A DNA stretch of 29,213 nt from IMG/VR virus record IMGVR_UViG_3300008217_000050, positions 1 through 29,213 of that record; one strand, given 5' to 3'. The notes under the pieces were generated by a model. The model ran no database searches and was not told the DNA's origin. It saw nothing but the letters and a program-made list of their open reading frames with translations. Both the position numbers and the translations under genes were made by a program. Positions 1,860-12,038 of this stretch are shown piece by piece. The stretch comes from a virus. How positions within the stretch are numbered: the stretch's first letter is position 1; each line of letters starts with the position of its first letter.

Positions 1860-1903
1860 GACGTGCTGGATGTAAGTAGAAAAACACATACATCTAGCAC
1901 GTC
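1860..1903 (+). promoter_or_regulatory. 15-bp stem hairpin upstream of small zinc gene
   Basis: Arms 1860-1874 and 1889-1903 pair over 15 positions with one G-T wobble around a 14-nt A-rich loop. The 3' arm belongs to an 18-bp element (1893-1910) that recurs with one mismatch at 3205-3222. No gene fills this stretch, so a regulatory RNA structure or operator is likely; its target is unknown. Confidence 0.5.
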
Positions 1904-1944
1904 GAACCGATACTACATCGAACCTATCGAACCGAGGAATCATC

Positions 1945-2103
1945 ATGACCATCTGCAATTATTGTGGCAAACCCATCTGTGATAAGAACCAACAGTTTCG
2001 GGCAATCTTGTCAACGGACTCCAACGATTGGCTTTACTACCACGATGCATGCTTCATAGTAGCAACGCCGCCAGAGCATAGAACGCGCGGCGGATACCGA
2101 TAG
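1945..2103 (+). CDS. Small zinc-binding protein, 52 aa
   Basis: ATG at 1945 follows GAGG at 1934-1937 with 7-nt spacing. The peptide starts MTICNYCGKPIC, giving a CxxC knuckle, and has HDAC (His then Cys) at about residues 33-36, so a four-ligand zinc site is plausible. It resembles small phage zinc-ribbon proteins that show a CxxC...HxxC pattern, but no specific family is recognised. It is the first gene of the second early unit and lies directly before the hairpin leader of the 154-aa gene. Function unknown; protein or nucleic-acid binding is inferred only. Confidence 0.65.
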   Translation: MTICNYCGKPICDKNQQFRAILSTDSNDWLYYHDACFIVATPPEHRTRGGYR

Positions 2104-2112
2104 TTCAATCAT

Positions 2113-2161
2113 CCGCTCCCAAGCAACAAAGATTGTTGCTTGGGAGCGGGCCATTGAGCCC
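2113..2161 (+). promoter_or_regulatory. Structured leader (a): 17-bp hairpin plus small second stem
   Basis: Arms 2113-2129 and 2133-2149 form a perfect 17-bp stem with a 3-nt loop. The 3' arm runs into GGGC (2148-2151) that can pair with GCCC (2158-2161). The two stems share two bases, so they may be mutually exclusive. GAGGAG at 2163-2168 is the ribosome site of the next gene, ATG 2177. Similar leaders precede ATG 2731, 4352 and 7744. There is no T run, so it is not a typical terminator. Confidence 0.6.
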
Positions 2162-2176
2162 AGAGGAGAGTAAAAA

Positions 2177-2641
2177 ATGTCTACAGAAGAATCCTTGGTC
2201 TTGGCTAAAGCCTCAGAAGAATCCTTGAAGCAGGAGTTGGCAACGCGATTCGGGCTAATGCAAAACAACGAATGGTTCAGAACGAACATATTCCAAGCGA
2301 ACCCTACCCCTGAAAATCCGATGCTGCGCGTCATGCGATTGGTACAAATGATATCCGATGGTACGCATTCCTCAACAGATATTGTGCCGGCACGTATGCT
2401 TGGCCGTGCAATAGATATTGTTGCTTGGGCACGGATAAACCGTCTGTTCCTTCGCATGATTGATTCGGAACCTGAGCCCGCTAATCTATCGTTAGTCCAC
2501 AACGACTCAAACGAGGACTGGATATCTGGGAGCGGGCTTCTGACCGAAGACGAAATCGACGCGCTAGAAAAGCTAGGGCTGAACGAACAATACGAAGTAG
2601 GCACTCACTTCGGAGCGATGGCAATCAAACGTATCGAATAG
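2177..2641 (+). CDS. Hypothetical early protein, 154 aa, paralog A
   Basis: Start ATG 2177 follows GAGGAG with 8-nt spacing. The last 55 or so residues closely match those of the neighbouring 154-aa protein at 2731-3195: both contain a LTE[DE]EIDALEKL segment followed by Y-x-[VI]-G-x-HFG and end in [IA]-[KQ]-R-I-[EK]. The N-terminal two thirds differ. No enzyme motif, signal peptide or membrane segment is visible; the protein is acidic and probably soluble. Both copies have the same length and the same type of hairpin leader, which points to a local duplication of gene plus leader. Function unknown. Confidence 0.75.
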   Translation: MSTEESLVLAKASEESLKQELATRFGLMQNNEWFRTNIFQANPTPENPMLRVMRLVQMISDGTHSSTDIVPARMLGRAIDIVAWARINRLFLRMIDSEPEPANLSLVHNDSNEDWISGSGLLTEDEIDALEKLGLNEQYEVGTHFGAMAIKRIE

Positions 2642-2672
2642 GGAAGGTTACAAATAGTTCCTTAGTCCATTT

Positions 2673-2714
2673 CAAGGCAACGGAAACGTTGCCTTGGCGT
2701 GGGCCAATGAGCCC
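2673..2714 (+). promoter_or_regulatory. Structured leader (b): hairpin with GAAA tetraloop
   Basis: Arms 2673-2682 and 2687-2696 form a perfect 10-bp stem closed by a GAAA (GNRA) loop. It is followed by GGCGTGGGCC and a GGGC/GCCC stem at 2701-2714 that matches leader (a) at 13 of 14 bases. An AAGGAG-type ribosome site then precedes ATG 2731. It is the second member of the four-copy leader family. Confidence 0.6.
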
Positions 2715-2730
2715 AGAGAAGGAGAAGACT

Positions 2731-3195
2731 ATGGATAAGGTAATCCGACTCACAGAGTGGCGTGTGAAACCCAGATTATATTTGTTAGACGATTTCATCA
2801 AGTCCCAGTGCTTTGATCTGCAAGGCAACCACATAATGCCAGAAGATGGTGGACTGCCGGACGAAGAGATTGACTCGCTTCGCTCTCTGGAAGTCGGTGA
2901 CAAGGTACGCCTAGGCGACCCAAGCTGTACCGAGATATATGTCGAACGTCTGGACAACATAGAAGAATTCTTAAAGCGGGAGACGTCAATACCGCCAAGT
3001 GAAAATACGATGGCGCGCATGCTTCGCATCATTGACTTGGAATCTGAGCCCGTCGATACATCGTTAAACGATTTTCTCGAATCGAACGATGGTCTGACCG
3101 AAGAAGAAATCGACGCGCTGGAAAAGCTAGAACTGCACAGATACTACGCCATCGGCGTCCACTTTGGGTGGGTAGCCATCCAACGTATCAAATAA
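2731..3195 (+). CDS. Hypothetical early protein, 154 aa, paralog B
   Basis: ATG 2731 is chosen because AAGGAGAAG lies just upstream; the in-frame TTG at 2689 would fall inside the leader hairpin. The C-terminal part is homologous to paralog A. The protein also repeats its own module: DGGLPDEEIDSLRSLEVG in the N-terminal half resembles NDGLTEEEIDALEKLELH in the C-terminal half, each followed by a short beta-like stretch ending in an E/Q-R-[LI] pattern. So paralog B carries two copies of a roughly 35-residue unit and paralog A one clear copy. No function is recognised. Confidence 0.75.
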   Translation: MDKVIRLTEWRVKPRLYLLDDFIKSQCFDLQGNHIMPEDGGLPDEEIDSLRSLEVGDKVRLGDPSCTEIYVERLDNIEEFLKRETSIPPSENTMARMLRIIDLESEPVDTSLNDFLESNDGLTEEEIDALEKLELHRYYAIGVHFGWVAIQRIK

Positions 3196-3204
3196 TGCTG
3201 GCCG

Positions 3205-3228
3205 TCTAGCACATCGAACCGAGTGCTA
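3205..3228 (+). repeat. Second copy of the tctagcac element, with small hairpin
   Basis: TCTAGCACATCGAACCGA at 3205-3222 matches 1893-1910 with one mismatch. TAGCAC (3207-3212) can pair with GTGCTA (3223-3228). It lies between the end of paralog B and promoter P2. A regulator binding site is a possible role. Confidence 0.45.
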
Positions 3229-3243
3229 TATTCAGCGAGCTGA

Positions 3244-3294
3244 AAATCCGTGTAGGGAAGGCTTGACCACTATGACAGGCCATGCAAATATATG
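3244..3294 (+). promoter_or_regulatory. Promoter P2, copy 2 of the repeated element
   Basis: TTGACC at 3263-3268 occupies the same place as the P1 -35 box, and the block from AAATCC onward is clearly related to 246-296. The -10 is AAATAT at 17-bp spacing (3286-3291) preceded by TGC, with TATATG three bases later as an alternative. The AAA+ gene begins about 45 bp downstream. Confidence 0.55.
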
Positions 3295-3337
3295 CACCCC
3301 GGACACGGGAAATCAAACTATATAAGGAGCAGACGAA

Positions 3338-4255
3338 ATGGTTACGGCAACTCTGACTAAGTGCCCTAAGTGCACTGAAGTCTTCGAAGATAGGGCGCAA
3401 GCGGTCGCCCATCTGAAAGACAAGCACCTAAATACAATACAACCAGTAAAAAACGCCCCCACCGCACAGAAAGAGAAGCCTCTCCGCGCCTACTTCAGCG
3501 AGTACGGCCGGGAAGTCTTCGAAGATTGCAAGATAGTCTTCCACGCAGAGCGAAACCCGCTGTTGTTGACCGGGAAGACCGGCGTAGGCAAGAGTCTCAT
3601 AACACGGGCTCTTGCAGCAGACCTCGGCCTCAACTACTCCGCCACCAATGCCCACCCAGAGATGGACATATCTCTCTGGGTTGGGCAATGGACTCCGGAA
3701 AACGACGACGGCATCATAATCCAATGGATTGATGGAGTGCTGACTCAGTTGGTCCGGTCGGGCGGTATGTTCTTGCTGGAAGAATTCACCCGCGCCCCAC
3801 AGGAAGTCATGTCAAGGTTGTTCGGTCTGATGGACGACGGCTTCCGCTATTGGACGCTCCCAGAAGCCGGCGGCATCGACGTACCAGTTGCTGAAAACTT
3901 CTGGTTGGTCGGTACTGCCAATCCTACTGGCGGTGGCTACTACACCGCCAAGATTGACGAAGCTGCCAAGCGCCGCTTCGTAATCATGGACATCGACAAA
4001 CCCCTGGCAGATGAAGTCCGTATGCTCGAAGACATATTCGAGAAGGGCGACTTCTGGATAGGCAAGTTGATGAAGTTTGCTACCGAGCTGCGCGAAGGCG
4101 TAAGCCATGAGTGCTACTTGAATACGGCAGACCTTCGCACCATGGCGAAGCTGATTAGCCATGGTATGCCGCCAATCAAGGCTGTTAAATTCGGCGTCGC
4201 GCCGAAGTATAACAAACCCGAAGGTATCCTAACTCTGGCGGAGGCTCATTTCTAA
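3338..4255 (+). CDS. MoxR/CbbQ/CobS-like AAA+ ATPase with N-terminal zinc finger
   Basis: Start ATG 3338 has AAGGAG 8 nt upstream. Residues 9-30 form a C2H2-type finger (C9, C12, H25, H30). An AAA+ domain follows: Walker A GKTGVGKS (79-86), Walker B-like FLLEEF (145-150, with Glu in place of the usual Asp), a sensor-type GTANP segment (192-196) and a candidate arginine-finger region AKRRF (210-214). The family includes MoxR, CbbQ/NorQ and CobS, chaperone-like ATPases that act on partners paired with VWA proteins. The next gene encodes such a partner, which supports a functional pair. The zinc finger at the N-terminus is an extra. The target in the infected cell is unknown. Confidence 0.85.
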   Translation: MVTATLTKCPKCTEVFEDRAQAVAHLKDKHLNTIQPVKNAPTAQKEKPLRAYFSEYGREVFEDCKIVFHAERNPLLLTGKTGVGKSLITRALAADLGLNYSATNAHPEMDISLWVGQWTPENDDGIIIQWIDGVLTQLVRSGGMFLLEEFTRAPQEVMSRLFGLMDDGFRYWTLPEAGGIDVPVAENFWLVGTANPTGGGYYTAKIDEAAKRRFVIMDIDKPLADEVRMLEDIFEKGDFWIGKLMKFATELREGVSHECYLNTADLRTMAKLISHGMPPIKAVKFGVAPKYNKPEGILTLAEAHF

Positions 4256-4281
4256 ATCGAGTAGTTAGCGAACTCCCGTTT

Positions 4282-4336
4282 CAGCACCGAAGCTACGGTT
4301 TCGGTGCTGGCGCGGGCTAAACTAAATCTACAGCCC
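4282..4336 (+). promoter_or_regulatory. Structured leader (c): 12-bp hairpin with UACG loop
   Basis: Arms 4282-4293 and 4298-4309 pair over 12 positions (one wobble) around TACG, which in RNA is a C(UACG)G tetraloop of the stable UNCG type. GGCGCGGGCT follows, and GGGCT (4314-4318) can pair with AGCCC (4332-4336). AAGGAGG then precedes ATG 4352. Third member of the leader family. Confidence 0.6.
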
Positions 4337-4351
4337 GAAGGAGGTATCAGT

Positions 4352-6148
4352 ATGGCAGAGGCCATAACTACTGAACGCTTCGGCGGTATCAAAGAAGCGT
4401 TTCAGATACTGACCGACTGTCCAAGGGTCGAGGTCTACGCAGACCCCAACGGAGACAAAGTGTCCCGCGAAGGTGGCCGTGGCAGACCTGAATCTTGGCG
4501 CATCGGCATGAAGGTAGGCGACGGCCATTGGGCAGTGCTCCATGAGATGGGACACGTCATATTTGACAGCTTCGGTGGGGCAGAGAAACTCCTTGCCAAG
4601 TTCGAAGATAAACGTATCCATACTATATGGAACGCTGCCGAAGATGTACGCATCGAACGACTCGCACAGCGACACTTCGATAAACCCATATGGCGCCATC
4701 ATAAGCAGGCTCTGATTGACCAAGCTGAGTCCGACGGCATGGAGTCGTTAGACAATCTTGTACACATGGTGCAGGGACTGTTGTACGACTTGCCGTTGCC
4801 GTTGGGTGGTACTGAGACCGAGCGTAAAGCTCTGGAGTATTTCAAAGAAGATTTGATTGCTTCAACCAGGTCGAAAGACTCAGCGGACACGGCGAAGGTT
4901 GCGATACGAATCGCACACTACATGGCCTGGTTGGACAAGGTGTCTGCGCCACCTAAACCACCGGAGCCAAGGACTCCGACAGACGAACCAGGCGACGGCG
5001 ATGGCGACGATGGCGACGATGGCGACGACACCGAACCGGGCGACGGCCCATCGGGCGACCCAGATAGACCGGCCGATGTGGAGTCAGAGGATGTGCCTAC
5101 CAGTTACACAGGTCAAGGGGTGAAAGACCACGACGACGACGCGGTGCCAGATGTACCGGACGACGATGTGCTTGACATCTTTATAAAAGATGCGCCGCCG
5201 TCACCAATCTACGACGAATCAAGCGAAGATGATTTGCTTGAGACGTTGGGCAAAGCGGCGAAGAGTATCCATACAAGCGAACGCCGCGCCGAAACTAGGG
5301 AAAATAAAAAGAAGGAAGAGGCGGAGCAGAAGCTGGCCAGCAAGGGCCATCGAATCGTCTACGGCTTCGATGAAGACGGCAAGTCTAAAGCTGACGAAGA
5401 CGACCACGTAGTGCATATGCTGAAATGGGTTGCTGAAGACGTAGTCCTGAGCGACGCTTCCCGGTTTGTACTTGAGAACGCTGAATCCGCTGGGGCCGGC
5501 CGTAGCCGGTACACTGGCATGCCGTCGCGCAAAGCGTGGCGGTTGACATACGGCGACACTAAAATATTTCGGAAGCCGCCGAAGCACAAGGGCAAACTGG
5601 TCTGCCTGGTGGATATGTCCAGCTCTATGGGATGTGGTTGCGAACGGCATAAAGACAAATATAGAACAGTAGCCAACGCGTGGCTGGCGTGGCAAACGGT
5701 ATCTGTACTCAGCAGTCGTTTCCCGGATATGGAAGTATTCGGGTTCACGTCCAGCGAAAGTAAGAACTACATCGTACCGTTCCCGTCACAGAAGCAACCG
5801 GATTGCCGCAGTAAACAGATGAGACGCGGGCATGAAATTGGCGGCGGCAACGCCGACTGCGCATCCTTGCTGTGGCTCGATGAATACCTCGGGTTGTTCA
5901 GTAACGGCAGCTCGGCAATCGTCATATCTGATGGTATGCCGGCTGGCCCCTTTCCTCTGCGGTGCGGATGTGCCACCCATACCAAAGAGGTAGCGAAGAT
6001 GATGAACGACAAGGGCGTCAGCTACGCTAGCGTGTTGATTCGTACCGCAGATAGGGGTCTGTATCCAAATGAATTGACGACCACTATCAACGAAGTAAAC
6101 GACATACGCAATCTGCAGGAGGTACTAGATTGGATAAACACCAAGTAG
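4352..6148 (+). CDS. CobT-like protein: metallopeptidase-like region plus VWA domain
   Basis: 598 aa from ATG 4352, which follows AAGGAGG; a start at 4304 would fall in the leader hairpin. Residues 64-68 are HEMGH, a zinc-peptidase HExxH motif, and NAAEDVRIE (94-102) could provide the third ligand as in gluzincin-like folds. A long acidic, repeat-rich linker (about 205-320) leads to a C-terminal VWA domain with a MIDAS-type DMSSS (421-425), then GGGNADC and VISDGMP, the pattern seen in CobT and related VWA proteins. Together with the AAA+ gene before it, this matches the MoxR-VWA/CobS-CobT pairing. Whether it cleaves protein, remodels a complex or chelates metal cannot be told; no cobalamin genes are nearby. 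Confidence 0.8.
   Translation: MAEAITTERFGGIKEAFQILTDCPRVEVYADPNGDKVSREGGRGRPESWRIGMKVGDGHWAVLHEMGHVIFDSFGGAEKLLAKFEDKRIHTIWNAAEDVRIERLAQRHFDKPIWRHHKQALIDQAESDGMESLDNLVHMVQGLLYDLPLPLGGTETERKALEYFKEDLIASTRSKDSADTAKVAIRIAHYMAWLDKVSAPPKPPEPRTPTDEPGDGDGDDGDDGDDTEPGDGPSGDPDRPADVESEDVPTSYTGQGVKDHDDDAVPDVPDDDVLDIFIKDAPPSPIYDESSEDDLLETLGKAAKSIHTSERRAETRENKKKEEAEQKLASKGHRIVYGFDEDGKSKADEDDHVVHMLKWVAEDVVLSDASRFVLENAESAGAGRSRYTGMPSRKAWRLTYGDTKIFRKPPKHKGKLVCLVDMSSSMGCGCERHKDKYRTVANAWLAWQTVSVLSSRFPDMEVFGFTSSESKNYIVPFPSQKQPDCRSKQMRRGHEIGGGNADCASLLWLDEYLGLFSNGSSAIVISDGMPAGPFPLRCGCATHTKEVAKMMNDKGVSYASVLIRTADRGLYPNELTTTINEVNDIRNLQEVLDWINTK
5000..5026 (+). repeat. Three tandem copies of GATGGCGAC
   Basis: Exact 9-bp tandem repeats inside the linker of the CobT-like gene. 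They encode an Asp/Gly run with a three-residue period, so copy-number change would keep the frame. Confidence 0.7.
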
Positions 6149-6486
6149 TCCTGTGGATTTCACGGCACGAACCAACGGACGACATGGTTACTTCGCTCAG
6201 GGAAATCCTGGGCGAAGTAACCATCGTGCTGCACAAGAAAGACATAGGTCGAGCGAAGAGTTTGTCTACCATCTTGGATGTGCATGAGCCAGACCGGGTG
6301 GTAGCCACGTTACCGATAGACATGCAGGAACTATTGACTGCAGAACTATTCAAGCGTGGCATGCAGCCGATGTTGCGGCCTGTCTACCATCACCGTCGTA
6401 CCGCTGGAGAGTTTGTCTTTCGCGGCTACGAAGAGGTTCTGGAAATTCGGGTGCGTACCAGACCAGCATCAAAGGAGCTGCTATGA
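6130..6486 (+). CDS. Hypothetical small alpha/beta protein, 118 aa
   Basis: The start is TTG 6130, supported by AGGAGG at about 6118-6123; it overlaps the end of the CobT-like gene by 19 nt, so translation is probably coupled. Hydrophobic strands recur: VVLWIS near the N-terminus, VTIVLH, RVVATLP and PMLRPVY, with helices between, suggesting a small Rossmann-like alpha/beta fold. The opening LWISRHEPT-x-x-MV reminds me of uncharacterised phage proteins with a SRHxPT start, but no function is known. Its coupling suggests it works with the AAA+/VWA pair. A large hairpin lies inside the coding region. Confidence 0.7.
   Translation: MDKHQVVLWISRHEPTDDMVTSLREILGEVTIVLHKKDIGRAKSLSTILDVHEPDRVVATLPIDMQELLTAELFKRGMQPMLRPVYHHRRTAGEFVFRGYEEVLEIRVRTRPASKELL
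6184..6224 (+). repeat. 18-bp hairpin inside the 118-aa coding region
   Basis: Arms 6184-6201 and 6207-6224 are complementary over 18 positions with one G-T wobble; the loop is five bases. It lies about 55 bp after the TTG start, so it could affect translation or mRNA processing. It is one of the longest stems in the window. Confidence 0.7.
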
Positions 6487-6559
6487 CCTAACAGCAGTCG
6501 GCGCAGCGCCGGCCATCTAGGTTATCCAACGTAAGAACCAAATTAAAACTTAGGAAATT

Positions 6560-7594
6560 ATGTCTACAAATAAAGGCTCGCGTCAGCCTGTTCGACGCAC
6601 AATCGGGCAACTCATGGACGACCAACAATCGAATAACGATATCATGCCTCTGGTAGGCGGGAACAAAATCAACCGCCGCGTCCAAGCAACGCAGGACAAG
6701 CTGCTTACTGACTCGTTTACGCCATTAAAGCACATCGACAGCAAGTTAAAGTTCAAGCCCAGAGAAGGCGACCAACTCATAGCCCCAGAGACATGCCTTT
6801 ACTGGTTGTCTCTGAATATCAGCAACCGCACGGTTACTGATGCTCGGGTAATGGAACTAGCTGAATACATGGTAGCAGATGACTGGCACAATACATTCAA
6901 CCCGGTCATGTTCTACACCGGCGACAATGGCAAGACGTTCATCTTAGCCAACGGTCAGACCCGGATGTGGGCTGGGTGGCTCACTGGTTGTACGGTCGAA
7001 CACACTATTCGAATCACCGACGACCCGAAAGTTCTGAACCACATCGACGACCATAAAGCTAGGAGCGTGGCAGACTTACTGTCTACGCATAAGTATGCCA
7101 ACTACAATGTGCTTGCGTCAGCTACTGGCATCGTGCGGGCCTATCAAGAATACGACCCACCGTTCGCTGGCGCATCTACTCTGCACAATGCGCCGAAGTT
7201 CAACCGTGACCAGGTTCTGGAATACTGCCAGGAAAATCCAGAGTTCGTTGAGACAGTAGGCACCGCGCACCGTGTGCTGCCGTGGACGAAGCGCATGCTG
7301 CGGTCGCCCTCGCTGGCATGCTCGTTGTACTACCTAACGTGGGCAGCAGCCAGTGACAGATATAGCCACGCTAGGTTCTGGGACTTAGTGGAAACCGGCG
7401 CCGGCCTGGATACCAACCACCCGGTCCTGCGGTTACGCCACATCTTGACCCAGAATATGACCGCTGCCAAGCGGTACGACATCCTCACCGTAGCTGCCAT
7501 GGTCGTCAAGGCATGGAACCTGCTGCGTGCTGGCCGGGTGCGTGGCCGCATCGCATGGGGAGCGCAGACGGAGCGGTTCCCTTCCATCACCTAA
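6560..7594 (+). CDS. ParB-like nuclease-fold protein, 344 aa
   Basis: ATG 6560 follows an AGGAA sequence. Residues about 85-175 look like the ParB N-terminal/sulfiredoxin-like fold: a stretch of positions controlling which residues vary, then FILANGQTRMWAGW, where GQTR takes the place of the ParB GERR-type motif, then a helical HIDDHKARSVADLL segment. That last segment is common in phage and mobile-element proteins annotated as ParB-domain proteins. The first 80 residues are polar and may be disordered; the C-terminal half is helical. Such proteins may bind DNA or nucleotides, act as nucleases or modulate transcription. No ParA partner is seen, so plasmid-type partitioning is not supported. 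Confidence 0.65.
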   Translation: MSTNKGSRQPVRRTIGQLMDDQQSNNDIMPLVGGNKINRRVQATQDKLLTDSFTPLKHIDSKLKFKPREGDQLIAPETCLYWLSLNISNRTVTDARVMELAEYMVADDWHNTFNPVMFYTGDNGKTFILANGQTRMWAGWLTGCTVEHTIRITDDPKVLNHIDDHKARSVADLLSTHKYANYNVLASATGIVRAYQEYDPPFAGASTLHNAPKFNRDQVLEYCQENPEFVETVGTAHRVLPWTKRMLRSPSLACSLYYLTWAAASDRYSHARFWDLVETGAGLDTNHPVLRLRHILTQNMTAAKRYDILTVAAMVVKAWNLLRAGRVRGRIAWGAQTERFPSIT

Positions 7595-7602
7595 GTCCGT
7601 TT

Positions 7603-7635
7603 CTGCCCCGCGTGTCGGCGGGGCAGGCGCGGGCC
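7603..7635 (+). promoter_or_regulatory. Structured leader (d): hairpin before the 54-aa gene
   Basis: Arms 7603-7611 and 7618-7626 form a perfect 9-bp GC-rich stem with a 6-nt loop, followed directly by GGCGCGGGCC. A second dyad, CAGGGGG/CCCCCTG, follows at about 7668-7683. The gene starts at 7744 after a complete AAGGAGGTG site. Fourth member of the leader family; the hairpin also starts only 9 bp after the stop of the ParB-like gene. Confidence 0.5.
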
Positions 7636-7743
7636 TACGTGTCCGATAGCATCTGCCGAAGCTGGAGCAGGGGGCTCCCCCTGTCTTGAATATATGAGCA
7701 TCCAGCTAGGCAGATAACTAAATCTGTAAAGGAGGTGTAAACC

Positions 7744-7908
7744 ATGAACTATGTCTCGGATTGCTGTGGTGCCCATGCTGTTGCGGGAACCCTCAACACA
7801 TGGACTTACTACGGTAATAGCACAGAAGATGCAACTGTCGTGACCTACGGCACATGTGCAAAGTGCAAAGGGCCTAGCCTATTCAGCGAAGGAGAGCAGG
7901 GAGAGTGA
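7744..7908 (+). CDS. Small zinc-ribbon protein, 54 aa
   Basis: ATG 7744 has an almost perfect anti-SD match (AAGGAGGTG) 7 nt upstream. The peptide holds SDCCGAH near the N-terminus and CAKCKG at residues 38-43, the two halves of a probable zinc ribbon. The stop TGA shares one base with the ATG of the next gene, so the two are coupled. Similar short zinc ribbons are common in phage early operons. No specific role is known. Confidence 0.7.
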   Translation: MNYVSDCCGAHAVAGTLNTWTYYGNSTEDATVVTYGTCAKCKGPSLFSEGEQGE

Positions 7909-8159
7909 TGTTGGAATTTGCCCGAACGCTTATGGGTAAGAAATTCTGCTCCGATGTAGCAGCCATACCATCAAGCATCGACCGATTGTGCCGGGCTGTC
8001 GAAAGGCTTGAATTACAGCTCATGGAACTTAACAGCCACGTTAAGCGCGGCGTGTCGATTGATGTAACCAGCATGCCTATCGTAAAACAATATGATGCCA
8101 TGCCAACCCTATTGGCAAAAGGAGAAAATGATGGCGACAGAGATAACACCTTGGCGTAA
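7908..8159 (+). CDS. Hypothetical protein, 83 aa, helical
   Basis: The ATG at 7908 overlaps the previous stop (TGATG) and follows GGGAGAG; a GTG one codon earlier is an alternative. Residues about 20-45 (SSIDRLCRAVERLELQLMEL) have a heptad-like pattern and may form a short coiled coil. Its 3' end overlaps the next gene by 29 nt. No family is recognised. It may be an accessory of the recombination block that follows. Confidence 0.65.
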   Translation: MLEFARTLMGKKFCSDVAAIPSSIDRLCRAVERLELQLMELNSHVKRGVSIDVTSMPIVKQYDAMPTLLAKGENDGDRDNTLA

Positions 8160-11212: not shown

Positions 11213-12038
11213 GTCATTGGCGCGTTTTCAAGAGTTAGTCCATTACTTGCCAGAAGAAGCAAGGTTTATTCCCGACGATGGCATATGCAGCGACTGTTCG
11301 TTGATTGTGCATAACAATCCTGCGGTCGAGAAGCTGCTCGCTATACGGGGGCTGAAATATTATGACGACAAACAGAACAAAGTCATAAACAAAGGCGTGC
11401 CGTATTGCCGATGCAACGTTGTCGCTGACGAAGAGAGGCGTACCAACGCCTCGCAGTATCTTTTAACCGTGCGCAGCGCAGGGTTGCCGTCGTCAGTAAA
11501 AGGCCCAACGCCACGCGAGTTCGTGGCCGGGACATTTGCGAACTTCACCAACCGCCAAGGCACAGAAGATGCACTGGAAATGGCCTTGGATTTTACAGTA
11601 GGCAACAGCCCTCCCGTCCTTGTCTTTGTAGGTCCGCCAGGCTCTGGCAAGACCCACCTGCTTGAAGCTATCGGGCGCCAGTTCCTAGACCAAGGACGGA
11701 CAGTGCGCTATGAACTTGTGGCCCACCTGCTGCAGCGGTTGCGTAGCAGCTACAACATGAACGAAGAGTCCCGTGTCATGGAAGTCTGCTATGGAGCAGA
11801 CGTACTGCTGCTCGACGACCTTGGCATGGAAAAGCCGAGCGATTGGGTGCGCGAGCAGATAACGTCATTGGTTGATGAGCGGTGGCGGAACAACAGACTG
11901 CTCGCTGTCGGCACCAACGAAAACCACACCACCATCGAAGAGCGGCTGGGGCCACGCATATCGTCCCGGTTATTCGACCGTTCCAGCGGTAAGTCACAAG
12001 TAACATACCTTGTGACCGGAGACTACAGAGCAATATGA
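11196..12038 (+). CDS. dnaC: DnaC-like helicase loader ATPase, 280 aa
   Basis: Start ATG 11196, after a GAGGAGGAGG stretch, overlaps the initiator gene by 17 nt. The C-terminal two thirds is an AAA+ domain: Walker A GPPGSGKT (146-153), Walker B VLLLDDLG (203-210), sensor GTNEN (239-243) and Arg residues in RISSRLFDR (254-262). This is the DnaC/IstB/DnaI pattern, where the protein loads the replicative helicase onto the origin. The N-terminal region has C31, C34, C71 and C73, as in DnaI-type loaders with a zinc-binding helicase-contact domain. No DnaB is in the window, so it may use the host helicase or one encoded elsewhere. Confidence 0.85.
   Translation: MESLSESLARFQELVHYLPEEARFIPDDGICSDCSLIVHNNPAVEKLLAIRGLKYYDDKQNKVINKGVPYCRCNVVADEERRTNASQYLLTVRSAGLPSSVKGPTPREFVAGTFANFTNRQGTEDALEMALDFTVGNSPPVLVFVGPPGSGKTHLLEAIGRQFLDQGRTVRYELVAHLLQRLRSSYNMNEESRVMEVCYGADVLLLDDLGMEKPSDWVREQITSLVDERWRNNRLLAVGTNENHTTIEERLGPRISSRLFDRSSGKSQVTYLVTGDYRAI

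Follow-up and report, generated by a model that had tools for sequence, protein, structure and literature searches.

Putative cis-acting RNA elements of recurring geometry fill early-gene gaps in a group of tailed marine viruses

Among the described systems closest to the elements reported here are the RNase III sites of bacteriophage T7, whose early RNA is cut by the enzyme at five sites (PMC4858673). Hairpins can also stabilise an mRNA when they lie near its 5' end (PMC3997798). The present elements lie in the window, by which we mean the whole 29,213-base stretch analysed, an entire IMG/VR record of an uncultured marine virus with its early genes on the + strand and its structural genes on the − strand. 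They appear to belong to a family of RNA elements, acting in cis, that occupies the gaps between early genes in a group of tailed marine viruses, and across three viruses their geometry recurs while their stem sequences are unrelated.

A sequence-only reading had proposed four structured hairpins before early genes, and its description of them held throughout. The hairpins are present at 2112–2150 (18 bp), 2672–2697 (11 bp), 4281–4310 (11–13 bp) and 7602–7627 (10 bp); the flank GGMGYGGGCY (M, A or C; Y, C or T) occurs as GGAGCGGGCC, GGCGTGGGCC, GGCGCGGGCT and GGCGCGGGCC at 2143, 2696, 4309 and 7626, and the start codons downstream (ATG 2177, 2731, 4352 and 7744) each have a ribosome site. The second GGGC/GCCC stem claimed for three copies was found in copies 1–3, and the GAAA and UACG loops are those of copies 2 and 3, the loops of copies 1 and 4 being AGA and GUGUCG. 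A terminator T run is absent after all four hairpins, as had been stated, and a terminator scan lists none of them. Three copies have CCR-UUU-C(stem)G-GCG-YGGGC in common, which amounts to a U·C mismatch flanked by two G·U pairs atop a CCR/YGG helix. In copy 1 that place is taken by CUC/GAG. Among the sequences searched, only this virus shows the GGMGYGGGCY flank, and the wider signature is the geometry together with the GGGC-CAWUGA-GCCC hairpin. An 18-bp hairpin at 6184–6224, which lies inside the reading frame 6130–6486 and whose flanks are unlike those of the four elements, is not a family member.

The earlier term 'leaders' stands only in part. The elements do precede genes, but their folds fill intercistronic gaps, and because most start at or beside the upstream stop codon, 'intercistronic elements' is the better name: they are at once the 3' end of one gene and the leader of the next. 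All lie on the + strand. The long fold of element 1 (2103–2159) combines an outer helix, GUUCAAU/AUUGAGC, with the 18-bp stem, and its pairing starts at the final base of the TAG that ends ORF 1945–2103; the alternative hairpin GGGC-CAUUGA-GCCC (2148–2161), with the 17-nt motif GGGCCAWTGAGCCCAGA, sits just 5' of the ORF 2177 ribosome site. Element 2 has a long fold with three 1x1 mismatches (2657–2712), 15 nt past the TAG stop of ORF 2177–2641, and an alternative hairpin GGGC-CAAUGA-GCCC (2701–2714) 5' of the ORF 2731 ribosome site. The long fold of element 3 (4261–4331; 13 bp, 1x1, 5 bp, 6x5, 4+4 bp) begins a few nt past the TAA stop of ORF 3338–4255, and its alternative hairpin GGGCU/AGCCC with a 13-nt loop (4314–4336), seen in the sequence and in a constrained fold, is 5' of the ORF 4352 ribosome site. 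Copies 1–3 finish just 5' of the next ribosome site. Element 4 (7595–7634), a 10-bp stem on a 6-bp lower stem, directly follows the TAA stop (7592–7594) of ORF 6560–7594, and neither an outer helix nor a GCCC partner was found for it. In a possible fifth, weak copy (6483–6525), belonging to the gap 6487–6559, the outer helix spans the TGA that ends ORF 6130–6486; its folding z-score of −1.9 is alone not significant.

Some neighbouring features may be recorded here. The ORFs 2177–2641 and 2731–3195 are tandem paralogues of unassigned function (37% identity), each with its own element. An identical AACTAAATCT stands at 4320–4329 and 7716–7725, 5' of the ribosome sites downstream of elements 3 and 4, respectively, and another large nested structure (7650–7716) lies between element 4 and ORF 7744.

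Stems of this length are rarely produced by chance in such gaps. When intercistronic gaps of at least 70 nt within 2104–7743 were counted, four of the six held a stem of at least 9 bp; in 1000 dinucleotide shuffles there were 0, 1 and 2 such gaps in 952, 45 and 3 trials and never more than 2. Folding z-scores for elements 1–4 were −9.6, −6.0, −4.1 and −4.1. In the structure-based alignment of the four window copies, pairing is retained in 57 of 60 cells, with compensatory double changes at 7 of 15 pairs (13 cells), and the covariation score of 0.767, as against 0.331 in shuffles, was reached by none of 500 shuffles and lay above every slid control; the alignment consists of four paralogous rows, which makes this strong for its size but no independent replication. 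The earlier contention that stem letters differ while pairing is kept, the mark of a selected RNA structure, is borne out by these doubly changed pairs and by a score above 500 of 500 shuffles, and selected RNA structure in the elements is well supported.

The most informative relative, L231 (IMG/VR 3300009414_002141), was picked by hairpin sequence alone. A scan for GGGCCAWTGAGCCCAG matched nine contigs, of which only L231 has the sequence just 5' of a ribosome site and start codon; its MoxR protein was then found to be 42% identical to that of the window (E 2e-45). Window positions 2701–2717 are identical to L231 at 17 of 17 bases of the second hairpin region. In each of its four intercistronic copies L231 has a 12-bp hairpin A whose loop is four bases long, together with a middle helix M and an outer helix O; the 5' strand of O contains or abuts the stop codon of the preceding gene. 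A hairpin B draws on the 3' strands of both M and O, and a hairpin C, its loop CANGA or CAAUGA, lies 5' of the ribosome site. Double compensatory changes occur in helices A, M, B and C across these four paralogous copies. At column 57 three copies have A and the fourth has G, and with this change its partners in M and in B both go from U to C; column 59 co-changes with both partners in three of four copies. That these columns change with both partners implies two alternative L231 helices, each kept by selection, and two mutually exclusive, conserved helices, the pattern expected of a bistable switch, are found in the four copies. The energies of the two states are within about 3.5 kcal/mol of each other. 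From these sequence patterns the L231 RNA is probably bistable, the middle helix competing with the downstream hairpin and both covarying.

The window has the same topology as these competing helices. In copies 1–3 the GGG of GGGC can pair either upstream, in the lower main stem, or downstream, with GCCC, and the hairpin formed by GGGC/GCCC has a loop complementary to the outer 5' strand. Since GGGC/GCCC is invariant in the window, covariation speaks neither for nor against that small helix. When a model built from L231 only was run without filters over window 1900–8000, copies 1, 2 and 3 ranked first, second and third (11.3–11.9 bits, E 0.08–0.10). The same model gave 11.4 bits at one site of a 14-kb control, so that each single window match is marginal and it is the joint ranking that counts. 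An artefactual inverted repeat in L241 scored 18.7 bits, and part of the signal of the L231 model is therefore that of any long hairpin; the repeat itself (L241:6981–7064), 40 bp long, perfectly matched and located at the end of a contig, is probably an assembly or amplification artefact.

Further members had been named as a check on the family, and related elements do occur in two other viruses, L231 and G002 (3300030090_004288). The capsid protein of G002 is 82% identical to that of the window, and the genome carries two such folds. One is matched by the L231 model (locus L210, 7628–7740; E 1.4e-4 in 5.5 kb): its outer strand contains the stop codon, its apical stem has 12 bp and a loop of four bases, and its sequence is wholly different. 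Eleven bases of its 5' arm recur further downstream, where they are able to pair with the 3' arm instead (alternative pairings of −46.2 against −41.3 kcal/mol). The other, at 11897–11970, runs 13 bp, 1x1, 7 bp, 1x1, 2 bp, 1x1 and 6 bp, which is the layout of window copy 2. The geometry that recurs is an apical stem of 10–13 bp, a small internal loop, a middle stem of 4–7 bp and an outer stem of 4–9 bp, with total pairing usually of 23–28 bp (23–26 in elements 1–3, 24 in all four L231 copies, 28–31 in G002 and 16 in element 4).

Searches elsewhere were less productive. Three scans of the relatives G003 and G005 with the L231 model, at the 4-kb scale, were without a convincing member, and a covariance model built solely from the window copies found nothing significant elsewhere. 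Among the matches listed outside the window for the exact pattern CCRTTTC-N-GGCGYGGGC in viral contigs, none pairs over more than 6 bp; the exact motif is absent from 14 capsid-relative records, and BLAST of the elements against phages gave nothing convincing. Against Rfam 15 the window showed no hit at the gathering score, and neither window 1900–8000 nor L231 had one at E≤1. A search of mainly open-access papers found no description of such elements. A protein search of viral contigs found 199 relatives of the window's capsid protein, mostly in records holding structural genes, and its 26–29% identity to Pelagibacter phage capsids is a distant likeness only. The VWA, MoxR and ORF 8131 proteins of the window, each as sole query, returned no relatives; the ORF 6560 protein found one distant locus, L004, whose hairpins do not resemble the window elements, and a MoxR alignment search of bacterial genomes found two distant cellular loci. 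A MoxR-type AAA ATPase gene adjoins a von Willebrand-type protein gene at 3338–6148, and this pair is also kept in G002 and G005. Promoter-like stretches at 252–292 and 3250–3292, both with GTAGGRAAGGCTTG followed by a −10-like sequence, precede ORF 411 and the MoxR ORF 3338, respectively. Upstream of ORF 1945 is an inverted repeat (1859–1903; GACGTGCTGGATGTA ... TACATCTAGCACGTC), perhaps a repressor operator.

There is reason to read the elements as intercistronic processing or stability signals akin to the RNase III sites of T7, with possible gating by the ribosome that terminates upstream; to this tentative reading our analysis assigns a probability of roughly 0.42. Free stem sequences, a recurring geometry, many copies, the lack of a U tract and a placement from stop codon to ribosome site together fit RNA processing and end-protection signals, and that the elements precede unrelated genes argues for a generic function. 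As at RNase III sites, they are imperfect hairpins of about two turns in early-operon gaps, element 4 with its 16 bp being the short one. The long imperfect hairpin, its first strand overlapping or near the upstream stop codon, would be the processing form; its cutting would give a separate message for each early gene, and the hairpins remaining after the cut would protect the message ends. The competing helices and the position of the stop codon at the outer strand suggest that the choice of state may lie with the terminating ribosome. By covering the outer 5' strand, a ribosome at the end of the upstream gene would tip the balance towards the short alternative hairpins, and cutting of the long form may in this way be gated by translation, which is the least certain step. 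A full strand-exchange switch at the stop codon, in which the ribosome decides between the long cut hairpin and the short protective hairpins and each early message is processed according to the translation of the preceding gene, appears unlikely.

Against the processing reading counts the conserved CAWUGA/CANGA loop, which a nuclease that reads geometry does not need and which suggests sequence recognition. The conserved loop of the small hairpin would allow for a binding protein, and the elements could be operators at which a viral or host RNA-binding protein reads GGGC-CAWUGA-GCCC, the UUU/GCG loop or both and controls several early genes together. The 17 bases identical in a distant virus just 5' of a ribosome site, the CANGA/CAAUGA loop held constant in L231 while its stem covaries and the constancy of UUU/GCG in three window copies with changing stems would all accord with such a role; however, the CAWUGA loop is missing in elements 3 and 4, the ribosome site lies outside the hairpin and a candidate RNA-binding protein was not found, and operators seem plausible if rather improbable. 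A direct translational switch, in which upstream translation refolds the gap and so opens or closes the next ribosome site, is a more doubtful proposition. The outer strand contains or adjoins the stop codon, the covarying helices of L231 are mutually exclusive, coupling by unfolding has precedent (PMC12548453), and in some single alternative folds the ribosome site or start codon is paired. Promising as these single structures were, the alternative fold failed as a mask on ensemble exposure, which (element 1 excluded) hardly differs between the two modelled states; the ribosome sites are mostly open in both models. The lack of a robust difference in modelled exposure makes a direct switch less favoured, and the roughly 70–150 nt from stop to start are long for coupling.

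Other readings fare considerably worse. Strong GC-rich stems after stop codons might act as transcription terminators or attenuators even without a U tract, but same-direction genes resume a few bases on, and at other places in the relatives G002 and G005 runs of seven Ts do follow hairpins, which makes the elements unlikely to be plain terminators; termination or attenuation of this kind is very improbable, and an intrinsic terminator, for which a U tract must follow the GC-rich hairpin, was rejected with a T run at none of the four elements. Inverted repeats look alike in DNA, and the least credible account is that the palindromes act at that level, as REP-like mobile repeats, operators or sites of recombination, the RNA fold being incidental. 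Stem sequences are unrelated among copies, G·U pairs and one-sided mismatches are retained, and the elements keep a fixed orientation to genes and a position tied to stop codon and ribosome site; a REP-type or mobile palindrome was rejected because the stems of the four copies share no repeated sequence. A riboswitch was likewise rejected, the stem sequences being free and the downstream genes unrelated.

If the family is real, it would be an undescribed phage RNA family known by its shape and missed by ordinary sequence searches. It would bear on whether translating one gene can gate how the RNA of the next is processed, and offers a hint of the means by which marine viruses that lack known regulators may adjust their early genes.

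Set beside known systems, the elements most resemble the T7 early RNase III sites (R1.1 and others), where several imperfect hairpins in one operon precede different early genes. Unlike these sites, the window folds, known here from sequence, start at or near the stop codon and repeat one geometry closely, and a relative has kept a downstream hairpin that competes with the long fold. Like the coupled pairs MS2 coat/lysis, f1 VII/IX and rpmI-rplT, they present a structure from stop codon to next gene that an upstream ribosome could open (PMC12548453), but in those pairs the structure masks the ribosome site, which in the window is mostly open in both modelled states. As with the phage mRNA operators of MS2 coat, T4 gp43 and RegA, the sites lie close to where ribosomes bind on several early genes; the sites of RegA lack structure (PMC3014915), whereas the window has a long covarying helix upstream of the ribosome site. 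REP-type and other intercistronic stabilising hairpins also stand just past stop codons without a U tract, but REPs are repeated sequences, and in the window the stems are unrelated among copies and only geometry and flanks recur. Conservation at the level of geometry and, likely, bistability are the parts that set these elements apart among intercistronic phage RNA elements.
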